DNA from: Gammaproteobacteria bacterium
GTDB taxonomy: Bacteria > Pseudomonadota > Gammaproteobacteria > GCA-001735895
Assembly: GCA_024763505.1 (NCBI GenBank)
Contig: JANTFI010000011.1
Coordinates: 1 to 41,853 of the forward strand
Reading direction: 5' to 3'
DNA length: 41,853 nt
Shown: piece after piece, positions 25,128-39,482 of the stretch
Layout of the letters: each line of letters starts with the position of its first letter
How positions within the stretch are numbered: the first letter of the stretch is position 1
The notes under the pieces: model-generated
Databases searched by the model: none
What the model was told of the DNA's origin: nothing
Seen by the model: only the letters and a program-made list of their open reading frames with translations
Made by a program: the position numbers and the translations under genes

Positions 25128-25147
25128 ATATTAGAATAGTCTAATAT
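25128..25147. promoter_or_regulatory. ATATTAG-N6-CTAATAT operator-like palindrome before the RND operon
   Basis: Perfect 7-bp arms; with the inner AAs the arms extend to 8 bp (ATATTAGA/TCTAATAT). It is followed by ACT, so its right arm overlaps a TATACT -10 at 25145-25150. The same arms and spacing recur at 34331-34350, also overlapping TATACT. A repressor site is likely; the regulator is not in the window. Confidence 0.6.
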
Positions 25148-25184: not shown

Positions 25185-26216
25185 ATGAAACCGATTCTCA
25201 AAACATTGATGATTGCAGGCGGATTACTGATCGGGCACGGTGCCCTGGCGCTGGAAGGTATCGAATCAGAAGAAGCCCTTCTGAAAGAAGTCTCATCATC
25301 TTATATGCTCGATGGAATTGTCGAGGCCGAGCTGAGGACTACGATTTCGGCCCAGACCAGTGGCATTGTCAAAGCTGTAAACTTTGATGTGGATGATTTC
25401 GTCAAAAAGAATCAGATTGTGGTGTTGATCGACAATACCCAGCAGCAAGCCAGTTATCAGCAGGCGATTGCAGCAGAAAAAGAAGCCCGCGCGCGCCTCA
25501 AGGAAGCCGAACTGGAATATGACCGGGTAGAAAAGGTGTACGCAAAAAAAGTGGTACCCAAAGCGTCTTTCGATAAGGCTGCGGCTGCATTGGCATCGGC
25601 CAAGGCCCGGTTGGAATCGGCAAAGGCAGCCTTGTCCAAAGCTCGGGAATCTCTCGAATACACGAGGGTTCGTGCCCCGTTCAGTGGTGTGCTGACCCAG
25701 CGTCTGGTCGAGGTCGGAGAAACGGTCAATGTCGGCACCCAACTGGTCTCGGGGGTATCGTTGGAGCGACTGCGGGTACGGACTCATGTCCCGCAAAGCA
25801 TATATCAGGCAGTGCGCGATCATCAACGCGCGATCGTGGTAACAGAAGATAGTGAAATCGTGTCGCGTGATATGACCTTCTTCCCGTTTGCCGACCCACT
25901 TAGTCACAGTTTCGAACTGCGGGTGCGTATACCACTGACCGAAACCGGCTTGCGCCCGGGCATGTTCGTCAAGGTCGCGATGGAAGTCAGCCGGGAAGAA
26001 AAAACCGTCATTCCTTTCAACTCGGTTGCTTTTCGCGGTGAAGTAACCGGCGTGTATGTACTGGAAGGAGATACGCTGCATTTTCGCCATGTCCGTCTCG
26101 GTCGACGATTGGCAGACAATGAAGTGGTAGTGCTGGCCGGTATCAATGTGGGTGATCAGGTGGTGACCGACCCGGTGGCAGCCGCTATTACCATCAAGCA
26201 AGCCAAAAGTGAATAG
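25185..26216 (+). CDS. RND efflux periplasmic adaptor (membrane fusion protein)
   Basis: A 343-residue exported adaptor. The signal peptide is MKPILKTLMIAGGLLIGHGA with cleavage near LALEG. The biotinyl-lipoyl part (AEVELRT-like EAELRTTISAQTSGIVKAVN) and a coiled coil of Ala/Lys/Glu repeats (about 90-155, AKARLESAKAALSKARESLE) are followed by YTRVRAPFSGVLTQRLVEVG, ETVNVGTQLVSGVSLERL and the membrane-proximal domain. It links an RND pump to an outer-membrane channel. The ATG has AGGA 8 bases upstream. The operon has an ATATTAG-N6-CTAATAT operator in front and no TolC-type gene behind. The pump gene follows after 8 bases. Confidence 0.9.
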   Translation: MKPILKTLMIAGGLLIGHGALALEGIESEEALLKEVSSSYMLDGIVEAELRTTISAQTSGIVKAVNFDVDDFVKKNQIVVLIDNTQQQASYQQAIAAEKEARARLKEAELEYDRVEKVYAKKVVPKASFDKAAAALASAKARLESAKAALSKARESLEYTRVRAPFSGVLTQRLVEVGETVNVGTQLVSGVSLERLRVRTHVPQSIYQAVRDHQRAIVVTEDSEIVSRDMTFFPFADPLSHSFELRVRIPLTETGLRPGMFVKVAMEVSREEKTVIPFNSVAFRGEVTGVYVLEGDTLHFRHVRLGRRLADNEVVVLAGINVGDQVVTDPVAAAITIKQAKSE

Positions 26217-26224
26217 GGGGCGTC

Positions 26225-29200
26225 ATGTCTGATTCGAACCTGACTGAATCCTCGGGCAAGCTGGGTATATCTGGCGCACTGGCGAAAAAATTCCTGTTTT
26301 CGGAAATCACGCCTTTGTTGGCTCTGGTCGGCGTGCTGCTTGGTATTTTCGCGGTGATCGTGACACCGAAAGAAGAAGAGCCGCAAATCAATGTGACCTT
26401 TGCCAATATCTTTATTCCGTTTCCTGGCGCATCGGTGTCCGAGGTCGAGCATCTGGTCAGTTCACCGGCCGAGCAGGTGATCTCGGAAATATCCGGAATC
26501 AAACATGTGTTTTCGGTATCGCGTCCGGGCATGTCAATTCTGACCGTCCAATTCAAGGTCGGTGAAGATCGAACCGATGCTATTGTGCGCCTGTATAGCA
26601 AGGTGTTTTCGAATAATGACTGGCTGCCACCGAATCTCGGTGTCGGTCAACCGATCATCAAGCCCAAAGGTATCGACGACGTGCCGATTATCACTGCCAC
26701 GCTGTGGGCGAAAGATGAAAGCCAGGGCGCACACGAATTGCTCAAGGTCGCGCATGCGATTGAGGCGGAGCTGAAAAGGGTTCAGGGTACGCGCGATATT
26801 TATACTATCGGTGGTGCTCAGCACATGGTACGGGTAGAGCTGGATGCACAAAAGATTTCAGCCTTCAACCTCGATATCAATGCGATCAAATTGGCGCTGA
26901 CCAGTGGAAACCGTTCTTCTAATGCCGGAGCACTGATTCACGATGACAAAGAAATTCCGGTTCAGGCTGGTGTTTTTATGACCAGTAGTGATGAAGTCGG
27001 CAGTCTGGTGGTCGGTATGCACAAGGGGCGGCCGGTTTACCTCAATGAAATCGCCACGATCATCGATGGTCCTGCCGAGCCTGAACACTATGTCTGGTAT
27101 GGCACCGGAGCTGGTGCAGGTGAAGCAGGGCTGGAACCGATCCCCGACATGACCCCTGCTGTAACCATTGCCGTTGCCAAAAAACCGGGTACCAACGCAG
27201 TCGAGATTGCCGATCGGGTGATCAACCGTTTCGATCAATTGCAGGGCACTTTTATTCCGGAAGGTGTCAAGGTTACGATTACCCGAAACTATGGTGAAAC
27301 CGCTGATCATAAGGCCAGCAAGCTGATCACCAAACTGATTTTTGCGACGGCAGTAGTGATCGTACTGGTGGCAATTGCTATCGGTTTGCGCGAAGCCTTT
27401 ATCGTCGGTGTGGCGATCGGTATAACACTGTTGATTACGCTGTTTGCATCCTGGGCCTGGGGCTTTACACTGAACCGGGTGTCGCTGTTTGCGCTGATTT
27501 TTTCCATCGGTATTCTGGTCGATGACGCAATCGTAGTGGTGGAGAATATTCACCGCCATATGTCGCTAGGCAGCAAATCGCTGGCCGAATCGATACCGCT
27601 TGCGGTGGATGAAGTGGGTGGCCCGACCATTCTTGCTACCTTTACCGTAATTGCCGCGTTGTTGCCGATGGCGTTCGTAACCGGATTGATGGGGCCGTAT
27701 ATGAGCCCGATTCCGATCAATGCCAGTATGGGAATGATCATTTCGTTACTGATCGCTTTTGTCGTCACCCCCTGGCTCAGCTACAAGGTGTTGGCCTCGA
27801 AGCAGCATGAAATCGCGGCACATGGCGAGCATGATCAGGATATCCATAAAACTCGCATTTACCGTTTTTTCAAACGCATCATGACGCCTTTCGTCGATGG
27901 AGAACATCAGACCCGGAATTTTGTGTTATTGAATTTGATGGTCGTGGTGCTGATCGTGCTTTCAGTCGGTTTGGTGGCGATCGACAAGGTGGTGCTGAAG
28001 ATGCTGCCGTTTGATAACAAGTCGGAATTTCAGGTTGTGGTCGACATGCCGGAAGGCACGGCACTGGAGCATACTGCGATGGTTATGCACAAGCTCGGCG
28101 ATGCGATTGCCAAAGTGCCTGAGGTAGCCGATTATCAGGCTTATGTTGGAACTGCGGCACCGATTAATTTCAATGGTCTGGTACGTCAGTATTATCTCAG
28201 AAAAGGGGGCAATGTCGCCGATTTGCAAGTTAACCTGGTGGACAAGAAACATCGCGATCGAAGCAGCCACGAGATCGCATTGTCGGTGCGAGATGAAATG
28301 CAACGTATCGGCAAGCTATATGGGGCCAATGTAAAACTGGCCGAAGTACCACCTGGTCCGCCTGTGATGGCACCGTTAGTGGCCGAGGTCTATGGGCTGG
28401 AATATCAGGGACAGATCGATGTGGCAAAAAAATTGCGCCCGTTGTTTGAGCAGACGCCCGACATCGTCGATGTGGATGACAGCGTCGAGTATCCGGCCAG
28501 CCGGTTCATTATTCATGTCGATCGGCAAAAGGCGGCCCGCTTTGGTATCAGCCAGTCGCAACTGGTGGATACCATCAAAACGGCATTACAAGGTGAAGAT
28601 ATCAGTTATATCCACGGCAATAATGTCAAGTTCGCTACGCCGATTCGAATCAAGCTGCCGACCTCAAGTAAGGAAGATCTGATCAATACCCTGTCGATCA
28701 AGTTACGCACGTCGGAAGGAAGACTGGTTGCTTTGTCTGAGCTGGTTTCGATTGAGGATTCTCGGATCGAGAATGTTATTTACCACAAGGACTTGCTGCC
28801 CGTAGTATTCGTCACCGGCGATATGGCCGGCGAACTCGACAGTCCACTCTATGGCATGTTCGAGATAACCGCCGAACTTGAAGAAAAATTTCCCGAATTG
28901 AAACAATACTTCATCCGGCCTCCAGATAATCCATACCAGTTCAGTATCAAGTGGGATGGCGAATGGCAAGTGACTTATGAAACTTTCCGCGATATGGGGA
29001 TTGCCTACTCGGTCGGCATGATCATGATTTATCTACTCGTGGTGGCGCAGTTTCGTTCCTACGTCGTGCCGCTGGTGATCATGGCGCCGATACCTTTGAC
29101 CATTATCGGGGTATTGCCGGGTCATGCCTTGCTGGGTGCAAAATTCACTGCGACTTCGATGATCGGCATGATTGCGCTGGCTGGTATCATCGTGCGAAAT

Positions 29201-29470
29201 TCGATTTTGCTGGTTGATTTTATTAACGAACAACTTGCGGCCGGTCATACCTTTGCAAACGCGGTCATTAAATCGGCTGCTGTGCGCGCCAAGCCGATTA
29301 TCCTGACCGGTCTGGCAGCGATGCTCGGCGCGTTTTTCATCGTTGACGATCCGATTTTCAAGGGGCTTGCAATCTCTTTGATTTTCGGCATTTTTGTATC
29401 TACCCTGTTGACCTTGCTGATTATTCCGGTGTTGTACTACCGGGTGTCCGGTTCGCAGGCTAAACCGTAA
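26225..29470 (+). CDS. RND-family efflux transporter permease
   Basis: A 1081-residue inner-membrane pump of normal RND length. An N-terminal helix (LLALVGVLLGIFAVIVTP) is followed by the porter domain beginning PFPGASVSEVEHLVSSPAEQ. The TM4 region has GILVDDAIVVVENIHRH, with the paired Asp residues that relay protons. After the second periplasmic loop, the second helix bundle has GMIALAGIIVRNSILLVDF and AMLGAFFIVDDPIFKGLAIS. It exports compounds in exchange for protons together with the adaptor upstream. Substrate (metal, antibiotic or sulfur species) cannot be told from the sequence. Eight bases separate it from the adaptor. Confidence 0.93.
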   Translation: MSDSNLTESSGKLGISGALAKKFLFSEITPLLALVGVLLGIFAVIVTPKEEEPQINVTFANIFIPFPGASVSEVEHLVSSPAEQVISEISGIKHVFSVSRPGMSILTVQFKVGEDRTDAIVRLYSKVFSNNDWLPPNLGVGQPIIKPKGIDDVPIITATLWAKDESQGAHELLKVAHAIEAELKRVQGTRDIYTIGGAQHMVRVELDAQKISAFNLDINAIKLALTSGNRSSNAGALIHDDKEIPVQAGVFMTSSDEVGSLVVGMHKGRPVYLNEIATIIDGPAEPEHYVWYGTGAGAGEAGLEPIPDMTPAVTIAVAKKPGTNAVEIADRVINRFDQLQGTFIPEGVKVTITRNYGETADHKASKLITKLIFATAVVIVLVAIAIGLREAFIVGVAIGITLLITLFASWAWGFTLNRVSLFALIFSIGILVDDAIVVVENIHRHMSLGSKSLAESIPLAVDEVGGPTILATFTVIAALLPMAFVTGLMGPYMSPIPINASMGMIISLLIAFVVTPWLSYKVLASKQHEIAAHGEHDQDIHKTRIYRFFKRIMTPFVDGEHQTRNFVLLNLMVVVLIVLSVGLVAIDKVVLKMLPFDNKSEFQVVVDMPEGTALEHTAMVMHKLGDAIAKVPEVADYQAYVGTAAPINFNGLVRQYYLRKGGNVADLQVNLVDKKHRDRSSHEIALSVRDEMQRIGKLYGANVKLAEVPPGPPVMAPLVAEVYGLEYQGQIDVAKKLRPLFEQTPDIVDVDDSVEYPASRFIIHVDRQKAARFGISQSQLVDTIKTALQGEDISYIHGNNVKFATPIRIKLPTSSKEDLINTLSIKLRTSEGRLVALSELVSIEDSRIENVIYHKDLLPVVFVTGDMAGELDSPLYGMFEITAELEEKFPELKQYFIRPPDNPYQFSIKWDGEWQVTYETFRDMGIAYSVGMIMIYLLVVAQFRSYVVPLVIMAPIPLTIIGVLPGHALLGAKFTATSMIGMIALAGIIVRNSILLVDFINEQLAAGHTFANAVIKSAAVRAKPIILTGLAAMLGAFFIVDDPIFKGLAISLIFGIFVSTLLTLLIIPVLYYRVSGSQAKP

Positions 29471-33112: not shown

Positions 33113-34036
33113 CTATTTTTGCGGGGCGGAAACCTGCGGCTTGGCTTCTAGATGAATCAAGTCAGCCAAAGATTTTTTCAATTCTCCGTACAGCCGTTCT
33201 ACCGCGTTGGGTCCCTTGACTGCCCAGCGCAAAGACTTGATTTGCGATACCAGCGCTTCATAGGGGGCAGAGTCTTCATTGGTGTATCCCAGCGCGATTG
33301 CCAGTTGCACCTGATCTTCAGCAGCGTTGAGTAAATCCAAAGTCTGGTCTTTCTGTTTATCCTTTTCCAGTTCGCCTGCTTCAAGCAGGAAGGCTTCAGC
33401 TCGTAATAGTGGCAGCGGAATTACTGACTCGCTGACCACGAAGCTGGTCAAGCCTTGTGTCAGAATTTGACGGGCCTTGTCTGTTTTTCCATTGACCAGA
33501 GCGGCGGCCGCCAGTTTGATGGTGTCCGGGTAGGTTGCCATGGGCAGATAAGTCGTTGTAGTCACCAACTCATCCTGCAATGGCAGCAGTAACTTTAGAG
33601 CTGCCTGAACCTGATGATCGCGTAACAAATCCAGCGCTTGCTCGGTTGTGTTTTCGACCATTTCCCAATCGGTGATCAATTCGAAAATATTGACGCTCGA
33701 ATCAATCGAAACCAGACCCAGCTCTGGCTTGGCGGCGAGAGCGATGTCAAATTTCCCAGTGGCCGCTTCGAGTGCGGCAATGGCTTGTCTGATTTTGTCT
33801 GTCTGTTCCAGCAAGCGAATGGCTTTTTTCACTTCATTGAAACCATCCAGAACATTCTGGTTGATCTTTTGTTTCAGTTCATCCTGCTTTTTAACGGCTT
33901 TTTCAATGGCTTTATCCGCAGTCGCTTGCTGCGCTTGATTCAATCCATTGTCTGCGGCCAACGGGTTATCGGCCGCCGCACTGGTTGCGAACGCGAGTAT
34001 TAACAAAAAGGTTCGTAAGATTTTTTTGGCATTCAT
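33113..34036 (-). CDS. YfdX family protein
   Basis: A 307-residue exported, mostly helical protein of the YfdX family. The signal peptide is MNAKKILRTFLLILAFATSA followed by AADNPLA. Family-like blocks are DGFNEVKKAIRLLEQTDKIR, SIDSSVNIFELITDWEMVEN, LPMATYPDTIKLAAAALVNG and LLRAEAFLLEAGELEK. The start has GGAGA 6 bases before the ATG. YfdX proteins accompany acid- or stress-related loci, and their molecular role is not established. The palindrome TCTGTC-AGGT-GACAGA at 34102-34117 lies about 75 bases upstream. A strong terminator follows. Confidence 0.82.
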   Translation of the reverse strand: MNAKKILRTFLLILAFATSAAADNPLAADNGLNQAQQATADKAIEKAVKKQDELKQKINQNVLDGFNEVKKAIRLLEQTDKIRQAIAALEAATGKFDIALAAKPELGLVSIDSSVNIFELITDWEMVENTTEQALDLLRDHQVQAALKLLLPLQDELVTTTTYLPMATYPDTIKLAAAALVNGKTDKARQILTQGLTSFVVSESVIPLPLLRAEAFLLEAGELEKDKQKDQTLDLLNAAEDQVQLAIALGYTNEDSAPYEALVSQIKSLRWAVKGPNAVERLYGELKKSLADLIHLEAKPQVSAPQK

Positions 34037-34389
34037 TTTTCTCTCCAGATGTCGGGTTATTTGAATGCACTGAAAGATGGGTTTCTGACCAAAATTTTCT
34101 GTCTGTCAGGTGACAGATGGCGGGAAAAGTCAGAAAAGTCATGTGCTTACGAAAGGGCTGGGAGCACGGCATTGTTCTTTCGATTTGTCAGATCTGCCCG
34201 CTTTTTTGGATGGGTTTACTGCAATGTGAAATTTCTACATTATTAAGGATTTATAAAAAGACTATTTATATCAATGGGTTAAGAGTGCGAATGGCTTCCG
34301 CAAAGGGTATGGGCAGTCATTGATCTTGAAATATTAGAAATTACTAATATACTAGAGACTATCCCGAAGTTCTTGATGGAGGTGTTTCC
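34037..34389. other. 353-bp gap between YfdX and the small membrane peptide gene
   Basis: No longer gene is supported. The YfdX end carries a perfect TCTGTC-AGGT-GACAGA palindrome at 34102-34117. The middle (about 34220-34290) is AT-rich. The right end carries the promoter and operator of the small peptide gene (34326-34353). Confidence 0.6.
34326..34353 (+). promoter_or_regulatory. Promoter with embedded ATATTAG-N6-CTAATAT operator
   Basis: TTGAAA (34326-34331), a 16-base spacer and TATACT (34348-34353) form a good sigma-70 promoter. The palindrome ATATTAG-N6-CTAATAT (34331-34350) fills the spacer and overlaps the -10. This is the same operator arrangement as before the RND operon at 25128-25147. 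Confidence 0.6.
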
Positions 34390-34473
34390 ATGACCGTTTT
34401 GACATATATATTGATGGTGATATTGGCCGCTTTACCAGTTGCAGCTATTTTTTACCTGAAAAAACAAAAGTAG
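34390..34473 (+). CDS. 27-residue single-helix membrane peptide
   Basis: A short open frame of 27 codons, with GGAGG seven bases before the ATG, opens MTVLTYILMVILAALPVAAI and ends FYLKKQK. It is one membrane helix with a positively charged cytoplasmic tail. The strong ribosome site and the well-formed promoter with an operator make it a real gene rather than a chance frame. An A/T-rich hairpin and T-run (34471-34480) may end the message. It matches no family I know. It may be a small regulator of a membrane protein; the RND pump is one candidate because of the shared operator, but that link is inferred. Confidence 0.7.
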   Translation: MTVLTYILMVILAALPVAAIFYLKKQK

Positions 34474-34538
34474 TTTTTTTATGGTTTCTGACCGAACCTG
34501 AGTGTCGTAGTCGGACTGATATCAACCACAAAAACGAT

Positions 34539-35102
34539 TTACGGTAAGGCCGGATGGTCGTCTAACTGTCGTTGCAGAGCATCGATCTGGTTTTGCAATG
34601 CCTGTCGTTCGAGCTGGTATTTTGATTCAATCTTGCGCTGCTGCTCGAACAATTCCTGTTGGCGAAATTCAGCCAGAACAACATCGTCAATATCATCGGA
34701 ATTGAAATCCAGTGAATCCATCTCTTCGCTAATCTCTTTCAGCGCTGTCTGTTTGTTTTTTTCCAGCGCTCTGATTTCTGCACGCAAGCGAATAATCTTG
34801 CGCCGCGCCTCACGTTTTTTTCTTTCGGCTTCGAGCCCCTGATTGAGTTGGTGATATTTCTCCTGAACGCTGCGAGATTGTCTGCGAGCATCCGGGGTTA
34901 CCGGTTTTTCAGCGGGCAGCGCAGTTGACTGTTGCCCGCTGGAACACGGCGTATCACTATAAGTGATACGACCCTGCTGTGTGCATTTATAGGTTGCAGC
35001 ATCGAGCTGAGTCGAAAAGCCGGTTGCGACCAGCAGGCCGAATAGAGTTACGCAACGGACGATTGCTGGAATGGCGGTGGTGGCTGTCTGGCGTTTATTC
35101 AT
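34539..35102 (-). CDS. DUF4124 domain protein with coiled coil
   Basis: A 187-residue exported protein. A signal sequence (CVTLFGLLVATGFSTQLDAA) leads to a DUF4124 domain, YKCTQQGRITYSDTPCSSGQ with the two cysteines of the family. A long charged coiled coil follows (EAERKKREARRKIIRLRAEI onward, to LERQALQNQIDALQRQLDD). DUF4124 proteins are periplasmic with unknown role. Starts: ATG 35102 gives MNKRQ and a good export signal; ATG 35156 in frame adds 18 residues. Confidence 0.8.
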   Translation of the reverse strand: MNKRQTATTAIPAIVRCVTLFGLLVATGFSTQLDAATYKCTQQGRITYSDTPCSSGQQSTALPAEKPVTPDARRQSRSVQEKYHQLNQGLEAERKKREARRKIIRLRAEIRALEKNKQTALKEISEEMDSLDFNSDDIDDVVLAEFRQQELFEQQRKIESKYQLERQALQNQIDALQRQLDDHPALP

Positions 35103-39371: not shown

Positions 39372-39482
39372 ATGTGGTATTTTACCTGGATTCTTGGTGT
39401 AATGTTGGCGCTGGCTTTTGGCGTAATCAACGTCATGTGGTACGAGTCGGAAAATTGCCTTGGCGAAGAAAACGACGAATAA
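39372..39482 (+). CDS. cydX: Cytochrome bd accessory subunit
   Basis: A 36-residue membrane protein, MWYFTWILGVMLALAFGVIN followed by VMWYESENCLGEENDE. The opening matches E. coli CydX (MWYFAWILG), with one membrane helix and an acidic tail. CydX stabilises the haem sites of the bd oxidase. GGAG nine bases before the ATG supports translation. It is too short for ordinary gene prediction, but its place after cydB and its sequence are typical. Confidence 0.95.
   Translation: MWYFTWILGVMLALAFGVINVMWYESENCLGEENDE

Follow-up and report, generated by a model that had tools for sequence, protein, structure and literature searches.

A narrowly distributed 27-residue membrane peptide gene behind an operator of a sulfur-related regulon in uncultured Gammaproteobacteria

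The stretch of DNA analysed here (41,853 nucleotides; "the window") carries a 27-codon gene that looks real, as judged from its sequence features, and whose promoter holds an operator found throughout the family ahead of sulfur-related genes. We consider it probable that this is a genuine, genus-restricted gene repressed by a protein of the ArsR family and induced by persulfide, the product being an accessory membrane subunit. The relevant features of the window are as follows.

34326-34331, plus strand: -35 hexamer TTGAAA, identical in the ortholog from a second species of the genus (genome G007)
34331-34350, no strand: operator ATATTAG-AAATTA-CTAATAT, a perfect inverted repeat, putative site for a BigR/SqrR-type ArsR repressor
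34348-34353, plus strand: -10 hexamer TATACT, which the operator overlaps
34378-34382, plus strand: Shine-Dalgarno sequence GGAGG, 7 nt ahead of the ATG
34390-34473, plus strand: open reading frame of 27 codons plus TAG, MTVLTYILMVILAALPVAAIFYLKKQK, with one transmembrane helix, predicted N-out, C-in
25128-25147, no strand: a further operator of this type (ATATTAG-AATAGT-CTAATAT), within the promoter of the RND adaptor gene
25185-29470, plus strand: RND efflux pair (periplasmic adaptor, 25185-26216; permease, 26225-29470), behind the same type of operator here and a candidate partner

Ten of the 12 bases in the -35 and -10 hexamers agree with the consensus, and the two are separated by a 16-nt spacer that the inverted repeat fills, bearing out the initial annotation, which had described an operator embedded in the promoter and a well-spaced GGAGG. 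This placement of the operator suggests that the gene is normally repressed. The expected count of such an operator in the window is 0.00. The promoter match by itself is not above chance (2 found versus 1.5 expected), and support for the promoter comes from its conservation in G007 and not from the match score. ORFs of 20 to 60 amino acids that start with ATG and combine a Shine-Dalgarno sequence with a transmembrane segment number three on both strands of the 41.9-kb window: the peptide gene, the genuine cydX and one other. A comparable ORF arose in 42 of 20,000 shuffles of the downstream segment, and of the seven GGAGG motifs that stand at a suitable distance from a start codon, that of the peptide gene alone precedes an ATG.

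The presence of cydABX nearby (cydAB lies 2 kb downstream of the peptide gene), together with the peptide's size and single helix, brings to mind a CydX-like small subunit of a terminal oxidase; bd oxidase tolerates sulfide. Such a role is nevertheless extremely improbable. A canonical CydX (MWYFTWILGVMLALAFGVINVMWYE...) already follows cydB at 39372-39482, and the CydX sequence is not found in the peptide, whose gene has a promoter of its own and lies beside a helicase gene in G007. The likely cydX gene (MWYFTWILGVMLALAFGVINVMWYESENCLGEENDE) sits between cydB and a gene for a CydD-like ABC transporter.

The ortholog in G007 (MTFLMYGLLLVLGLLPVVAILYLRKNRE; C403:4616-4699) shares 14 of 27 residues with the peptide (52%; 27 versus 28 residues), and the two agree in start, length and basic tail and both contain Pro16. 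When the hydrophobic core was shuffled 400,000 times, fourteen identities were never reached. Identical bases at codon positions 1, 2 and 3 number 19, 20 and 13 of 27, and six codon changes are synonymous. In a neutral simulation run at the observed nucleotide divergence of 36%, at least 14 identities without a stop codon were obtained in 3.7% of the runs; coding constraint alone is therefore moderate evidence for a real protein. Alignment of the two DNA sequences resolves two conserved blocks, one comprising the -35 hexamer, the operator and the -10 hexamer, the other the ORF, separated by a 5' leader that diverges in both sequence and length. The promoter-operator string conserved in both holders reads TTGAAATATxAGxAATTACTAATAxACTA. 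No neighbours are common to the two genes: the peptide gene has yfdX and a DUF4124 gene as neighbours, while the ortholog adjoins a SNF2-type helicase gene (named from sequence), a comparison that covers the upstream side, the G007 contig stopping about 150 nt past the ortholog's stop codon. The initial annotation had proposed a real small protein and, as a check, conservation of the frame in relatives. That check was run here and turned up the ortholog, so that the proposal stands unrefuted; frame, start, length and promoter-operator are all kept in the second species.

The same alignment bears on a different interpretation, namely that the operator controls a small regulatory RNA and that the ORF is incidental. 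The transcript would be short and looks monocistronic, and a hairpin is found past the stop codon of the G007 ortholog. However, conservation falls on the ORF, with the bias by codon position and the synonymous changes given above, and not on the leader; the folding energy is ordinary (z -0.55), and there is no Rfam match. We regard an RNA as very improbable.

When about 85,000 species were scanned for the DNA pattern, the sole match was the G007 contig, from an uncultured gammaproteobacterial MAG; tblastn over the genome contigs gave no peptide match. The peptide was not detected in the six other genomes of the genus, some of which are at least 95% complete, and no further copies were found in 41 genomes of the family, 369 genomes of the class, viral contigs or plasmids. 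Weak matches in other family genomes were attributed to chance, most of them falling inside long reading frames. Neither Pfam, NCBIfam, PHROGs nor PADLOC yielded a match above cut-off, nor did the PDB yield any, in agreement with the earlier view that the peptide belongs to no known family. Two candidate identities were rejected as generic likenesses of a helix plus basic tail, both below cut-off: BatA, which only the G007 copy resembled (E 0.004), and an archaeal CTERM family (E 0.06-0.1). By these searches the peptide is a narrowly distributed, genus-restricted orphan among small membrane proteins.

A short hydrophobic helix with a basic tail, placed under what looks like a stress-type repressor, could also be a TisB-type, toxin-like peptide that depolarises the membrane on induction; TisB is controlled by LexA. 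This appears quite improbable, given that no promoter-like site for an antisense RNA occurs on the minus strand at 33900-34700, that neither Rfam nor any toxin family matches, and that the charges of the peptide are all carried by its KKQK tail.

The yfdX gene (33113-34036) was considered as a possible partner of the peptide gene. YfdX is encoded in this genome and absent from all seven others of the genus, and was ruled out as a conserved partner on account of its presence in one genome of eight. Such a distribution suggests recent gain or repeated loss of yfdX.

The extent of the operator family was assessed with the pattern ATATWAG-N6-CTWATAY, using the reversed pattern as control. Perfect sites number 6 to 14 per strand in each of the eight genomes of the genus (0 to 1 for the reversed control), and the pattern occurs in 34 of 41 family genomes (this genome, G000, and 33 others; examples L008, L025, L026 and L133). 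Among the genes that directly follow the sites are those for sulfur globule proteins (PF17228; one copy above cut-off, two others below) and for YgaP-like membrane proteins (PF11127), as well as a SulP-type permease gene and a rhodanese/M48 peptidase pair (all three names from sequence) and an alpha/beta hydrolase gene; RND adaptor genes follow such a site in three members of the genus. Several of these promoters are built like that of the peptide gene, with TTGAC[AT] directly followed by the operator and a TATAxT hexamer overlapping its end. Some sites are paired on one stretch (L110, G005:C28; L135, G007:C305; L008, G000:C22). Several of the pairs lie near contig ends, where repetitive sulfur globule genes perhaps break the assembly. 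The operator is not pump-specific but belongs to a family-wide, sulfur-related regulon, and it probably marks a single BigR-like sulfur-storage regulon. Since the peptide gene has its operator in common with sulfur globule genes, the peptide is probably made upon build-up of sulfide or sulfane sulfur. Control of these genes by one (per)sulfide-sensing repressor did not surface in the searched literature that mentions both sulfur globule proteins and a repressor.

According to the initial annotation, the operator of the peptide gene equals that of the RND pump. This is true of the half-sites, which are identical, and not of the six central bases, which differ (AAATTA versus AATAGT). The special tie to the pump implied by that statement is not supported, in view of the size of the regulon and of the situation in G007, where the peptide gene keeps its operator and the orthologous pump does not. 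By analogy with AcrZ, the peptide might nevertheless bind the transmembrane part of the co-regulated pump and tune its activity. The common half-sites in this genome speak for such a partnership, as does the occurrence of a pump ortholog (about 80% identical) in both holders of the peptide, and Pro16 of the peptide falls at the position of the Pro16 bend that AcrZ requires for binding AcrB (PMC7267776), in itself a weak argument. Yet the pump promoter of G007 has no site at fewer than 4 mismatches, while G002 and G003 have the operator on the pump and no detectable peptide. Co-occurrence is uninformative, the pump being present in six of the eight genomes of the genus. Moreover, alignment of the peptide to AcrZ is not significant at any offset (permutation p 0.22-0.39), no AcrZ match exceeds the Pfam cut-off, and the AcrZ tail is missing from the peptide. 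On balance an AcrZ-like partnership seems unlikely. The pump promoter of G004 resembles that of G007 in lacking a site at fewer than 4 mismatches. The operator of the orthologous adaptor gene is thus kept in G002 and G003 but not in G004 and G007 (L121, L125, L186, L187), and membership of the pump in the regulon turns over within the genus, to judge from these promoters.

Two ArsR genes (HTH_5) were detected in the genome, at C106 and C66. The first (G000:C106; L032:977-1306) heads a rhodanese-glutaredoxin-SecB-like group (names from sequence). The closest solved structures to its product are BigR, YgaV, HlyU and SqrR, and both sensor cysteines align with those of BigR, YgaV and HlyU. Characterised persulfide-sensing relatives invariably carry a conserved pair of cysteines and are sensors of sulfane sulfur (PMC12423496). 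The C106 protein is 97-98% identical across all eight genomes of the genus (L154-L161), a conservation that is unusually high for an ArsR protein. It scores 78.3 bits against the 155-bit equivalog cut-off of the NCBIfam BigR model (NF040642) and, being near BigR but under that cut-off, is termed BigR-like. Its own promoter contains a variant of the operator, ATATTAG-N6-[AG]T[TA]AT, just past the -10 hexamer in 8 of 8 genomes, with at least 2 mismatches to the consensus in one half. The published SqrR/YgaV site is ATTC-N8-GAAT (PMC9774250); set against it, ATTAG-N6-CTAAT is similar but coincides only in the outer ATT and AAT of the halves. The C106 protein, of BigR/SqrR/YgaV type, is the likely repressor. 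We take its pairing with the operator as a strong inference, in view of the mismatches at its own site and of a published site that has a related spacing without being the same. The C66 protein was rejected as the regulator: its cysteines are arranged differently (a C-terminal CC), its gene adjoins one of glyoxalase type, and the site upstream has 2 mismatches, a class in which chance matches are common.

From what is established here, namely the ORF and its conservation, the position of the operator, the regulon and a gene for a two-cysteine regulator, we infer the binding of that regulator to this operator, induction by sulfide, translation of the ORF, topology and an accessory role. Under the reading we prefer, that of a persulfide-induced accessory subunit, the ArsR repressor would occupy the operator between the -35 and -10 hexamers and block transcription. 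Persulfide or polysulfide would then link the two cysteines of the repressor and cause its release, and the peptide would be produced alongside the sulfur globule proteins and further membrane proteins that handle sulfur. It would insert as a single helix with the N-terminus out and the KKQK tail in the cytoplasm, a topology predicted by the positive-inside rule, and would most likely join an inner-membrane complex of the sulfide response as a subunit that assists or modulates it, the RND pump being one candidate. A single helix with a basic tail and without a soluble domain makes an accessory role the most economical guess. We advance more tentatively, as possible, the full proposition that the peptide represents a new, sulfide-induced family that binds an inner-membrane complex (the RND pump, SulP or a YgaP-like protein) and tunes it while sulfur globules form, and that it belongs to a BigR-like master regulon, not described before, for storing sulfur in uncultured gammaproteobacteria.

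Small membrane proteins under regulation are difficult to detect from sequence alone, and in the present case independent evidence comes from a conserved operator. Through that operator, one repressor that senses (per)sulfide appears to be linked with sulfur globule proteins, YgaP-like proteins and an efflux pump in an uncultured family that stores sulfur, and this regulon may be a lead of more value than the peptide.

Among known systems, the ArsR-family persulfide sensors SqrR, BigR, YgaV and HlyU offer a parallel in that the candidate regulator keeps both of their sensor cysteines. As with YgaV on ygaVP, the operator of the peptide gene overlaps the RNA polymerase site, and the YgaP-like and rhodanese targets of SqrR/BigR-type regulons recur here. 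The operator, however, is ATATWAG-N6-CTWATAT and not the ATTC-N8-GAAT of the SqrR type, and the regulon differs in being centred on sulfur globule proteins and in including an orphan small peptide. AcrZ (YbhT), the 49-residue partner of AcrB, is likewise a small single-helix membrane protein with Pro16, and in this genome the peptide gene shares its type of operator with an RND pump, a sharing that is not conserved; the peptide has 27 residues, shows no significant similarity and ends in KKQK instead of the longer C-terminal part of AcrZ. TisB-type stress peptides are also short, hydrophobic and under a stress-responsive repressor, but the peptide has no antisense RNA signal, a different charge distribution and no family match. 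CydX and other small oxidase subunits resemble the peptide in size (about 30 residues), in having one helix and in lying near cyd genes; they differ from it in that the genuine CydX is encoded elsewhere in the window and shows no sequence similarity to the peptide.
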